This document shows, in pieces, positions 1,565 to 4,995 of a stretch of DNA of 9,319 bases. Under the pieces are notes generated by a model, which searched no databases, was not told where the DNA came from, and worked only from the letters and a program-made list of their open reading frames with translations. Source of the DNA: B21-G16 sp003644825 [NCBI: Candidatus Zhuqueibacterota bacterium] (GTDB taxonomy: Bacteria > SM23-31 > B21-G16); the NCBI GenBank assembly GCA_003644825.1, contig QNDJ01000038.1, forward strand, positions 1 to 9,319, written 5' to 3'. Position 1 is the first letter of the stretch; every line of letters begins with the position of its first letter. The position numbers were made by a program, and so were the translations under genes.

Positions 1565-3817
1565 ATGGAAAAATCTCTTGTAATTGTTGAATCTCCTGCA
1601 AAAGCAAGAACGATTAATAAGTATCTTGGCAGGAATTTTGTGGTTAAAGCTTCTCTTGGTCATATTAAAAACCTTCCAGAGAACAGGCTCGGTGTTGACA
1701 TAAAAAACGATTTTAAACCAGAATATGTAACAATAAAGGGAAAAAGTAAATTTATCAATGAAATAAAAAAGGCTGCTAAAGATTCCTCTCAAATATATAT
1801 AGCTACAGACCCTGATAGAGAAGGTGAGGCTATAGCCTGGCACATTGCCCAGGAAATTAAACCGAAAAATGGGAATATTTACAGGGTACTCTTCAATGAA
1901 ATAACAAAAAAAGCTGTTGAGACAGGAATTAATAACCCCGGTAAAATAGACCTGCTCAAAGTCGATGCCCAGCAAGCAAGAAGAATTATGGACAGAATTG
2001 TCGGGTATCAAATAAGCCCATTCTTATGGAAAACTCTATATTCGGGGCTTTCAGCAGGCAGGGTTCAATCTGTTGCTCTCAGGCTTATCTGTGATAAAGA
2101 ACAAAAAATAAAAGAGTTCACTCCAGAAGAATACTGGTCTGTTGAAGCACTATTAAAAACTAAAAATCAAAACGAATTTTACTCAACTTTAATTAAAAAA
2201 AATAATACTAAAATTTCAATCCCTGATAAAAATACAGTAGATAAAATCGTAGATGAACTCTCTAAACTCACTATCAGAATAATTGATATTAAGGAAAAAA
2301 AGATAAAAAGAAAACCCGAACCACCTTTTATTACGAGTTCTCTCCAGCAAGAAGCTTCAAAAAGACTCGGATTATCAACTTCAAGAATAATGAAAATAGC
2401 TCAACAGTTGTATGAAGGTATTGAAATCGGAAAAGAGGGAAATGTAGGTTTAATTACATATATGAGAACAGATTCGGTGAGAATTGCTGATGAAGCAAGA
2501 AATAAGGTCAGAAAATTTATTGAAAAAAACTTTGGAAATGAATATCTATCTAAAAACCCACGAATCTTTAAAAATAAGAATAAATCTCAGGATGCTCATG
2601 AAGCTATCAGACCCACCTACATTGAAAAACGACCTGACGATATAAAACCCTATCTTACAAAAGACCAGTACAATATATACAGGCTTATATTTAACAGGTT
2701 TGTGGCTTCTCAGATGGCAGAAGCAGTTATATCACAAAAATCAATAGACATTGAAGCAGGAGATTATCTTTTCAGAACAGCCTGTTCAACAACTGATTTT
2801 AATGGTTTTTTAAAAGTATTTCAGGATTTTTCTGAAACTGAAAAAGATGAAAAAAAAGAAATTCACATTCCAGAAGACATCAAAAAAGGTGAAATCTTAT
2901 CCCTTATAAAGTTGATACCAAAACAACATTTTACTCAACCACCACCAAGATATACCGAAAGTTCTCTTGTAAAAGAACTCGATAATCTTAATATAGGAAG
3001 ACCCAGCACTTATGCAATTATTATTACCACCTTATTACAAAGAAACTATATTGAAAAATCGGGGAAAAAGCTTATACCAACAGAACTCGGGCTTGTTGTT
3101 AACAAAATTCTTGTTTCGAGTTTTCCTGAGATATTCAATGTAAAATTTACTGCTAAAATGGAAGAGGAGCTTGATAAAATAGAAAACGGAATAAAAAAGT
3201 CTATAAACGTATTAAAAGATTTCTACACTCCATTCAGTTTTGCTCTGGAAAAATATAAAAAGAACAGGCTCAAAATAAAAAAGGAAATCCAGGAGTTCTC
3301 AGAAAAAAAATGCGAGCTATGTGGCGCACCTATGATTGTTAGATGGAGTAAAAGTGGAAAATTTTTAGGATGCAGTAATTTTCCAAAATGTAAATACACT
3401 ATGCCTCTCTCCAGAGATGAAACAAGCACCAATGAAACCTGCCCGGAGTGTGGTTCTATGCTTGTTATAAAAAATGGAAAATATGGTGAGTTTTTATCCT
3501 GTTCCCGGTATCCTGAATGCAGGTTTGCGAAACCACTGGTCGTTGCAAAATGCCCGGAAAAAAATTGCAACGGAGATATTATTTCCCGTAAAGGAAAAAA
3601 AGGAAGAATCTTTTACTCCTGTTCAAATTACCCTGAATGTAAATTCATCTCCAGATATAAAATTGTAAATCAAAACTGCCCTTATTGTGATTCAAATTAT
3701 CTTGAAAAAAGAAAAACTAAAGGTAAAAATCCAGTACTTATGTGCCCAAAATGTAAAAAAGTTATAAAATTATTGATATATATTTTAAAAAATTTATTGA
3801 TTATATTTCTAAAATAA
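1565..3817 (+). CDS. topA: DNA topoisomerase I (type IA)
   Basis: The enzyme relaxes negatively supercoiled DNA by passing strands through a transient 5'-phosphotyrosine break. Residues 1-~115 are the Toprim domain, with Glu9 (VESPAKA) and the metal-binding TDPDREGE at 81-88. The catalytic Tyr is Tyr299 in GLITYMRTDS, and DAHEAIRP and NIGRPSTYA are further type IA signatures. Four C4 zinc ribbons follow, with Cys pairs starting at residues 583/603, 626/646, 663/686 and 705/727. The last 20 residues (731-750) are Lys, Leu and Ile-rich, resemble no TopA domain, and lie where the DNA also encodes the next gene. I prefer the ATG at 1565 to the adjacent in-frame TTG at 1562. No good ribosome site is visible; GGG at 1553-1555 is the nearest. 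At 750 residues the length is normal. Confidence 0.96.
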   Translation: MEKSLVIVESPAKARTINKYLGRNFVVKASLGHIKNLPENRLGVDIKNDFKPEYVTIKGKSKFINEIKKAAKDSSQIYIATDPDREGEAIAWHIAQEIKPKNGNIYRVLFNEITKKAVETGINNPGKIDLLKVDAQQARRIMDRIVGYQISPFLWKTLYSGLSAGRVQSVALRLICDKEQKIKEFTPEEYWSVEALLKTKNQNEFYSTLIKKNNTKISIPDKNTVDKIVDELSKLTIRIIDIKEKKIKRKPEPPFITSSLQQEASKRLGLSTSRIMKIAQQLYEGIEIGKEGNVGLITYMRTDSVRIADEARNKVRKFIEKNFGNEYLSKNPRIFKNKNKSQDAHEAIRPTYIEKRPDDIKPYLTKDQYNIYRLIFNRFVASQMAEAVISQKSIDIEAGDYLFRTACSTTDFNGFLKVFQDFSETEKDEKKEIHIPEDIKKGEILSLIKLIPKQHFTQPPPRYTESSLVKELDNLNIGRPSTYAIIITTLLQRNYIEKSGKKLIPTELGLVVNKILVSSFPEIFNVKFTAKMEEELDKIENGIKKSINVLKDFYTPFSFALEKYKKNRLKIKKEIQEFSEKKCELCGAPMIVRWSKSGKFLGCSNFPKCKYTMPLSRDETSTNETCPECGSMLVIKNGKYGEFLSCSRYPECRFAKPLVVAKCPEKNCNGDIISRKGKKGRIFYSCSNYPECKFISRYKIVNQNCPYCDSNYLEKRKTKGKNPVLMCPKCKKVIKLLIYILKNLLIIFLK

Positions 3818-4668
3818 GAAACTATTCATATTTCACTGTAAGTTCATATACATCAGACTTGAATCAGTTTTTTTCCTTCTGTAAAGAAAAGTTCGGAGAC
3901 AATTTATCAATCGATGATATTGATAGAAACACAATAAGAGGCTATATTTATTTACTTTCTTCAAAAAGGTTATCTAATAGGAGTATCTCAAGAAAAATAA
4001 GCTGTTTGAGGGTTTTTTTCAGATTTCTGGTAAAAGAAAATATGATAGATATAAACCCAGCAGCAACTATTGGAATACCAAAAATAAAAAAAACATTGCC
4101 GGAGGTTCTTTCTGTTGAACAAATCAATAAAGGGATAGACGAAATTGAAGAAACAACCCCTGTTGATATCAGAGATAAATCTATACTGGAATTGTTCTAT
4201 ATATCCGGTATAAGACTCAGGGAACTTGTTAATCTGAACCTTATGGATATAAATTTCTTTAATAAAACTATTAAAGTAATGGGCAAAGGTTCCAAGGAAA
4301 GGATAATCCCTGTTGGAAATACAGGTTTAAAAGCAATAAAAAAATATCTTTCTGCAACAGGAAGGTATAATCCGGGCAATTTTTACAAGAAAGAACCCCT
4401 TTTTAAAGGAAGGACCGGTAAAAGAATTTCGGTAAGAACTGTTCAAAGGGTTGTTGAAAAAAGATTCGCAAACATAGCAGAGAAACTGAAAGTCCATCCT
4501 CACATTTTAAGGCATTCTTTTGCCACCCACCTTCTTGAAAGAGGGGCTGATTTAAAAACAGTAAAAGAACTGCTTGGACATGAAAATCTTTCTACCACTC
4601 AAATATACACTCATATAACGTCAGAACAAATGAAAAAAGTATATAAACAAGCTCATCCAAGAGCATAA
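3772..4668 (+). CDS. xerC/D: XerC/XerD-type tyrosine recombinase (start uncertain)
   Basis: The product probably resolves chromosome dimers at a dif-like site during division. The catalytic set is complete: Arg in SGIRLREL, Lys in MGKGSKER, HxxR in HPHILRHSFATH, His in LLGHENLS and the nucleophile Tyr in TTQIYTHI, ending in the Xer-typical AHPRA. The first ATG/GTG/TTG codon in frame is TTG at 3859, which would remove the first helix of the core-binding domain. Upstream codons clearly continue the family sequence (FKKFIDYISKIRNYSYFTVS). Starting at ATT 3772 gives 298 residues, with catalytic residues at R148, K172, H244, R247, H270 and Y279, the same positions as I recall for E. coli XerD. That start overlaps topA by 46 bases and has no ribosome site. 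The topA neighbourhood is typical of xerC, so the exact paralogue is open. The function is firm and the start is not. Confidence 0.9.
   Translation: MDIYFKKFIDYISKIRNYSYFTVSSYTSDLNQFFSFCKEKFGDNLSIDDIDRNTIRGYIYLLSSKRLSNRSISRKISCLRVFFRFLVKENMIDINPAATIGIPKIKKTLPEVLSVEQINKGIDEIEETTPVDIRDKSILELFYISGIRLRELVNLNLMDINFFNKTIKVMGKGSKERIIPVGNTGLKAIKKYLSATGRYNPGNFYKKEPLFKGRTGKRISVRTVQRVVEKRFANIAEKLKVHPHILRHSFATHLLERGADLKTVKELLGHENLSTTQIYTHITSEQMKKVYKQAHPRA
3784..3793 (+). other. candidate -1 slippery site in the topA-xer overlap
   Basis: In the topA frame the bases read T TTA AAA (3784-3790), directly followed in phase by a second match, A AAA AAT (3787-3793). Both fit the X XXY YYZ pattern for -1 slippage, and a -1 shift leads exactly into the recombinase frame, which is open here from 3757. 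No strong stem-loop or internal Shine-Dalgarno element is visible nearby, and A/T runs are common in this genome, so function is unproven. Confidence 0.2.
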
Positions 4669-4679
4669 AAATATTGACA

Positions 4680-4691
4680 TTATGTACATAA
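4680..4691 (+). promoter_or_regulatory. 12-bp perfect palindrome just upstream of hpf
   Basis: TTATGTACATAA reads identically on both strands and sits between the xer stop and the AGGAGG ribosome site of hpf. Symmetry and position suit a dimeric regulator, but no partner regulator is encoded nearby. TTGACA (4674-4679) precedes it without a correctly spaced -10. Chance is a real alternative in A+T-rich DNA. Confidence 0.2.
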
Positions 4692-4704
4692 ACAGGAGGA
4701 ACAA

Positions 4705-4995
4705 ATGAGAATAAATTTTACAGCAAGGCATTATAAAGCACCAGAAAGATTAAAACTATATGCCGAAAATGAGGTCAAAAAGCTTAAAAAATACTGGGAT
4801 GGAATAATAGATTGTGAAGTCATTTTAGATTACATAAAAGATATGCAGGTGGCTGAAATAAGAATAAAAGTTTATAATAATATGTTAGTTGCAACTTCGA
4901 GCAGTAATGATATTTTTAAATCAATTGATGATGCTGTTATAAAAATGGAGAGACAGTTAAAAAAATATAAAACAAAACTAAAAAGTTATGAATAA
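4705..4995 (+). CDS. hpf: ribosome hibernation promoting factor, short form (HPF/YfiA family)
   Basis: HPF binds the decoding channel of the 30S subunit in slow-growing cells and holds ribosomes inactive. The 96-residue product covers only the N-terminal beta-alpha-beta-beta-beta-alpha domain. It starts with MRINFTARHYKAPERLKLYAENEVKKLKKY, has the central strand VAEIRIKVYNNMLVATSSSNDIFKSIDDA, and ends in the basic helix KMERQLKKYKTKLK. It is the size of E. coli HPF and lacks the C-terminal dimerisation domain of long HPF. Short HPF normally works with RMF to form 100S dimers; no rmf is visible here. The start is well supported: ATG at 4705 follows AGGAGG (4694-4699) by 5 bases, the best ribosome site in the window. 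It is 22 bases ahead of hprK, an arrangement seen in proteobacterial rpoN-hpf-PTS clusters, although rpoN is absent here. Confidence 0.92.
   Translation: MRINFTARHYKAPERLKLYAENEVKKLKKYWDGIIDCEVILDYIKDMQVAEIRIKVYNNMLVATSSSNDIFKSIDDAVIKMERQLKKYKTKLKSYE

Follow-up and report, generated by a model that had tools for sequence, protein, structure and literature searches.

We analysed a window of 9,319 nucleotides, the whole stretch of DNA under study, in which topA is followed by xer on the same strand. The stop codon expected for topA and the start codon expected for xer are missing at the same place. A single base can account for both losses: the simplest cause is probably a one-base change at a former four-base ATGA overlap, a claim that holds whether T3771 is an error, a variant or real. 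The two genes themselves are ordinary, an Xer recombinase and a topoisomerase I. A first-pass annotation had described the missing xer start but was silent on the loss of the topA stop, and a single substitution at 3771 was absent from the options it gave. The window lies in contig C38 of a draft genome of 493 contigs that is 83.6% complete.

Table 1. Features of the window bearing on the topA/xer junction.
Feature	Position	Strand	Basis or remark
topA, DNA topoisomerase I as read	1565..3817	+	750 aa; TIGR01051, Pfam, TopA ends of relatives
Last Cys of the final topA zinc finger, with KKVIK	3752..3769	+	About where relatives keeping the finger stop
Junction ATTA	3769..3772	+	G at 3771 would make ATGA, xer start plus topA stop; edit enumeration, alignment with G002 and G004
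xer, Xer-type tyrosine recombinase, start at 3769 or 3772	3769..4668	+	TIGR02224, PF00589, PF02899, 1a0p
Three overlapping slippery heptamers in the topA frame (3784, 3787, 3790)	3784..3796	+	Judged to be chance
TTG, first canonical start codon in the xer frame	3859..3861	+	Too late compared with homologues
Gene set of contig C38			ssb, rpsR, rplI, topA, xer, hpf, hprK, two mannose-type PTS subunits, leuS

The xer start and the topA end

The first-pass annotation had read the xer frame as open from 3757, after a TAA at 3754-3756, with its first ATG, GTG or TTG at 3859, 29 codons past 3772. We confirmed both points: the frame is open over 3757-4668. Counting from the ATT at 3772, the catalytic residues of the 298-aa product fall, as had been claimed, at R148, K172, H244, R247, H270 and Y279, numbers that we take to be those of E. 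coli XerD. The product thus carries the full R-K-H-R-H-Y set of a Xer tyrosine recombinase, and it aligned with E. coli XerD (1a0p, E=4.2e-44) over the same catalytic motifs.

The N-terminal SAM-like domain is whole only when the codons before 3859 are included. With them, PF02899 scored 59.8 bits over profile positions 2-83 of 83; after the protein was cut at 3859, it scored 34.9 bits over positions 29-83. This match and the homologue starts described below support well the earlier view that these codons are translated as part of Xer. PF00589 was matched as well. The XerC model TIGR02224 covered nearly the whole protein (profile 1-293 of 295) at 327.7 bits, just below its curated cut-off of 335.15, and the XerD equivalog model scored 299.2 against a cut-off of 329.6. 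Because the protein scores just under both equivalog cut-offs, we assigned no subtype. The broader PRK00283 model also fell short (276.3, cut-off 279). NF040815, the XerA_Arch / integron-integrase-like equivalog, exceeded its cut-off (234.5, cut-off 220); Xer was not filed under this looser model because the score is well below those of the same protein for XerC and XerD.

Two observations touch on the neighbourhood of xer. Chain 14 of PDB 9i5v, a 401-aa protein named ribosome-associated inhibitor RaiA, matches Xer residues 9-297 and is thus a possible Xer-RaiA fusion. xer and hpf/raiA, which lies directly 3' of it, together occupy 3769-4995 of the window.

We aligned 52 Xer loci, the most similar among the matches listed from searches of 60 and 386 genomes; the duplicates L112 and L113 and the locus in C38 itself were left out. 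All 52 most similar loci have an ATG, GTG or TTG at or upstream of the column equivalent to 3787, and 30 of the 52 have a canonical start in the columns equivalent to 3769 and 3772. Among these most similar loci the commonest start column was 3772 (24 starts), followed by 3769 (9). The two genomes closest by Xer, G002 (50% identical) and G004 (49%), have ATG in the 3769 column, with a second ATG in the 3772 column in G004. Starts lie farther upstream in G001 (ATG or TTG), G003 (GTG) and G005 (TTG). These columns place the expected xer start at 3769 or 3772, or close by, so that the start deduced in the first-pass annotation was right to within one codon: homologues begin in the columns of ATT 3772 (or ATT 3769). 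The window has no canonical start there: it reads ATT at 3769 and 3772 and ATA at 3778, and we found no Shine-Dalgarno (SD) motif upstream of 3769 or 3772.

The topA product was well above the cut-off for NCBIfam TIGR01051 (811.7 bits versus 456.4) and matched Toprim, Topoisom_bac and three Zn-ribbon stretches in Pfam. For want of the expected stop, its frame runs 15 codons past CPKCKKVIK, within xer, to a TAA at 3815-3817. These last 15 codons (3770-3814) have no counterpart in the TopA ends of relatives that we saw. Relatives that keep the last zinc finger end in CPKCEEKV (G004) and CPKCGREFDNF (G002), and the more distant G011 ends in CPKCKSVIDPDSL, each followed at once by the stop.

Single-base edits at the junction

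We enumerated all 832 single-base edits over 3755-3858 (312 substitutions, 416 insertions and 104 deletions). An early topA stop together with an upstream xer start resulted from 14 of them, 11 deletions and three substitutions. With the 11 deletions, the xer frame extends far back into topA, to TTGs at 3687 and 3702. Among the three substitutions, only T to G at 3771 pairs the expected end of topA with the expected start of xer: topA then ends after KKVIK and the xer ATG falls in the ATG column of G002 and G004. We rejected the other two. A3755T would end topA at its last Cys, with an xer start at 3751 or 3742, and relatives keep residues past this Cys. T3786G would place the xer start at 3784, a column with starts in 3 of the 52 most similar Xer loci. 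A change of T to G at 3774 restores an xer ATG at 3772 and leaves topA long; this alternative counts against the ATGA reading, as a topA/xer pair with a 37-nt overlap exists (L126).

The first-pass annotation had put forward a single-base indel in the assembly. This option did not survive the enumeration, in which no indel of one base gave a sensible repair of both genes. An insertion ahead of the topA stop in most cases joins topA and xer into one frame. Deletions as far as 3798 produce an early topA stop, with xer either left without a start or opened at TTGs deep in topA. The A6 run at 3755-3760 was one candidate; loss of one A would end topA in CPKCKKL, but xer would again open to 3687 and 3702. 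We also consider improbable the wider reading that the junction arose from a different kind of assembly error, either an indel or the collapse of a spacer that held the topA stop and the xer start. In its favour, a spacer is present in all five phylum relatives, the segment 3755-3790 (5.6% GC) is a hard context for sequencing, and at another locus of the genome, L048, the frame is off by one base within an A/AT tract. Besides the failure of every single indel, the Xer homology, which continues unbroken up to the start position, argues against such an error.

As it stands, the junction is not an ATGA-coupled gene pair: it reads ATTA at 3769-3772, one base away. We estimated by sampling how frequently one substitution at one fixed codon would yield both a start and a stop by coincidence. 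This was the case at 8.4% of in-gene sites (3.5% as ATGA) and at 9.6% of AT-rich-matched sites (4.6% as ATGA), the latter rising to 18% if either 3769 or 3772 was allowed. When more codons were allowed, the in-gene figure was 23% over three and 46% over seven. The coincidence is only moderate, and the one-substitution repair is suggestive but not proof.

The reading frames, the homologous starts, the TopA ends of the relatives, the gene order and the outcome of the edits were all seen directly. We infer, as further parts of the best explanation, an earlier ATGA junction and translational coupling across it. Consecutive and in the same direction, topA and xer most likely abut in this lineage in an ATGA overlap at 3769-3772. 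The TGA of topA would come right after CPKCKKVIK, and the ATG of xer would be used by ribosomes terminating on topA (termination-reinitiation). In the sequence as given, the third base of the quadruplet is T, so that ATTA stands in place of ATGA and both signals, the start of xer and the stop of topA, are lost at once. The topA frame then reads 15 codons into xer, to the TAA at 3815, and xer keeps only the ATT codons at 3769 and 3772.

Gene order and four-base overlaps

A search of the phylum returned five relatives, all of the same class, the closest of which belong to other families. In each of them topA lies 5' of xer and in the same orientation, which makes a contig misjoin unlikely: the join is probably real. 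Beyond this pair, gene order is conserved only in part. hpf and hprK lie 3' of xer in four of the five, the contig of G004 ending soon past xer. rplI precedes topA in G002 and G004; in G003 and G005 the available stretch extends far enough, but no rplI was found there. PTS genes between hprK and leuS were found in G003 and not in G002.

An ATGA topA/xer overlap occurs in none of the five, all of which have a spacer. The distance from the topA stop to the xer anchor is 65 nt in G004, 304 nt in G002, 308 nt in G001 and 340 nt in G005, and the spacer of G003 (L107, contig C242) is about 1.5 kb. G003 is the only one with ORFs in this interval: two on the same strand, of 129 and 228 aa (L107 10164-11236). 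These spacers, up to 1.5 kb, and the multi-codon coincidence figures of 23-46% make the case for ATGA a little weaker. In favour of an overlap, at least six genomes of greater distance (L110, L111, L115, L124, L126 and L134) have topA and xer overlapping by 8-37 nt, the 37-nt overlap being that of L126, and the nearest upstream xer start in these pairs is ATG. Compared without gaps, the 36 nt of DNA that precede the anchor share 19 positions with G002 and 10 with G004, numbers that say little in such AT-rich sequence.

We then considered how genes abut elsewhere in the same genome, in a sample of 41 contigs (504 kb, 34.3% GC, about one-fifth of the assembly). Mechanical ORF calling with a greedy choice gave 411 ORFs of at least 80 codons; starts in this set are those nearest to the stop of the neighbour, so overlap counts lean high. 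Four-base overlaps were the commonest single spacing, with 23 of 245 close same-strand pairs, and 19 of these 23 used ATG as the downstream start. An SD-like motif was absent in 17 of the 23, as it is for xer; over all genes, such a motif preceded one of the first five starts in 196 of 365. Lack of an SD motif before xer is thus usual for a four-base overlap in the sampled genome.

The same sample contained 11 same-strand pairs of overlapping frames in which the downstream member had no nearby canonical start. The topA/xer overlap measured 58 nt in this screen and the other ten 1-25 nt; by eye, we took those ten as ordinary. The screens cover 5' ends and same-strand overlaps and would mostly miss lesions within genes, and they gave no support to an assembly riddled with errors throughout. 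The other broken-looking frames seen were the following. At L048 (G000:C5, minus strand, 11689), an esterase (PF00756) with a lipoprotein-like signal has its ATG one base out of frame in the A/AT tract AAAAAATATATATATA, which is either a phase-variable tract or an error. At L053 (G000:C10, minus strand, about 10243), a single TAA splits two same-phase open frames that resemble one interrupted protein; a Pfam scan of the downstream piece gave no match. At L063 (G000:C48:7562-8218), the one further locus of the assembly that matched Xer at E <= 0.001, the matched frame holds three internal stops and an integrase-like ORF of 146 aa is left.

UGA seems to be used as selenocysteine in this genome, outside topA/xer. 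An AIR-synthase-family frame at L057 (G000:C14, minus strand, about 10511), presumably SelD-like, has an in-frame UGA upstream, and its context KVKAAG-UGA-AAKISSSDL suggests selenocysteine. A second possible selenoprotein is the frame at L046 (G000:C3, minus strand, about 9078), with an in-frame UGA in FCCNW-UGA-AYGAADLAG; it resembles MvhD-type hydrogenase subunits. Neither selenocysteine nor an altered code is relevant to the junction, where TAA is both the stop that precedes the xer frame and the one that closes topA.

Expression of xer and comparison with known systems

The first-pass annotation had offered two further ways of expressing xer, a -1 frameshift from topA and a rare ATT or ATA start. 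We regard a -1 ribosomal frameshift at T TTA AAA AAT (3784-3793), producing a TopA-Xer fusion, as very improbable. Overlapping slippery heptamers do occur in the phase required, some 25 nt upstream of the topA stop, but in-frame heptamers of this kind occur in 17.7% of 60-nt stretches of this AT-rich genome, and the topA frame holds 21, of which 18 lie outside the overlap and three within it. The downstream fold is no more stable than expected (MFE -6.6, where 200 mononucleotide shuffles averaged -6.3 with an sd of 2.2), an upstream SD stimulator is absent and topA and xer overlap in none of the five phylum relatives. The conserved slippery site with a stimulator that marks a programmed -1 frameshift is therefore not found here. 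Of the first-pass reading as a whole, the upstream Xer codons and the place of the start stood, whereas the frameshift and the single-base indel fell away.

The rare start is possible but would be very rare. Under the preferred explanation, a one-base change at a former ATGA overlap, we slightly favour T3771 as a consensus error or a minority strain variant ahead of a working ATT start. It is rather unlikely, in our judgement, that the T is real and fixed, with xer translated at a low level from ATT 3769 or 3772 and topA carrying a harmless 15-residue tail; this estimate overlaps that for the preferred explanation, which covers either status of the T. The sequence as given does read T at 3771, the ATT codons lie where 30 of the 52 most similar Xer loci have a canonical start, and Xer has kept all its catalytic residues. 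Few overlaps in the 504 kb lack a start, so that by this measure the assembly is not generally poor. Another rare start may exist in the genome: at L073 (G000:C30, minus strand, 3550), a permease frame (PF02653) has no ATG, GTG or TTG at its conserved beginning, and its start is likely a CTG 6 nt after GGAGG. Against a fixed ATT, no SD motif precedes 3769 or 3772, and we noticed no further gene dependent on ATT or ATA in the 504 kb. Fixed switches of this kind are very rare in annotated genes: in a published reconstruction, 1 of 61,358 ancestral AUG starts had switched to AUU (PMC5622118). For E. coli rpoS, protein is reported to be still made, up to five-fold less, after its start was changed from ATG to ATA (PMC12864459), so that an ATT start is not impossible; the same paper, citing Hecht et al. 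2017 on all 64 start codons, gives ATA an efficiency of up to 1% of ATG. It is doubtful that a natural base change in a coupled ATGA junction left the recombinase to initiate at ATT, with 49 nt shared with a TopA extended by readthrough, so that a dimer-resolution enzyme is kept at a low level by a near-forbidden start.

The significance lies mainly in annotation and is low unless T3771 is real and used. A gene caller limited to ATG, GTG and TTG would trim 29-30 residues from Xer (to the TTG at 3859) and lengthen TopA, or else call a pseudogene. One base at an ATGA junction can spoil two gene models in this way, a pattern worth checking in draft genomes wherever neighbours together lack a stop and a start. 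If T3771 is real, xer would have one of few natural AUU starts and offer a simple test of coupling without AUG.

The xer product resembles the dimer-resolution recombinases XerC and XerD (TIGR02224, TIGR02225, 1a0p) in its near full-length profile matches, its SAM-like and catalytic domains and its six catalytic residues; it differs in that its start codon reads ATT. Initiation at AUU is known from E. coli infC. xer is alike in having ATT where a start is expected, but it has no SD motif, and none of the 52 most similar loci has an ATT start. According to Huber et al. 2019 (PMC6728339), ATGA and TGATG overlaps are widespread, and translation was strictly coupled in 13 of 14 tested pairs. topA and xer match such coupled pairs in gene order, in their -1 frame relation, in the position of the quadruplet and in the lack of an SD motif; they differ in the quadruplet itself, which in the window reads ATTA.
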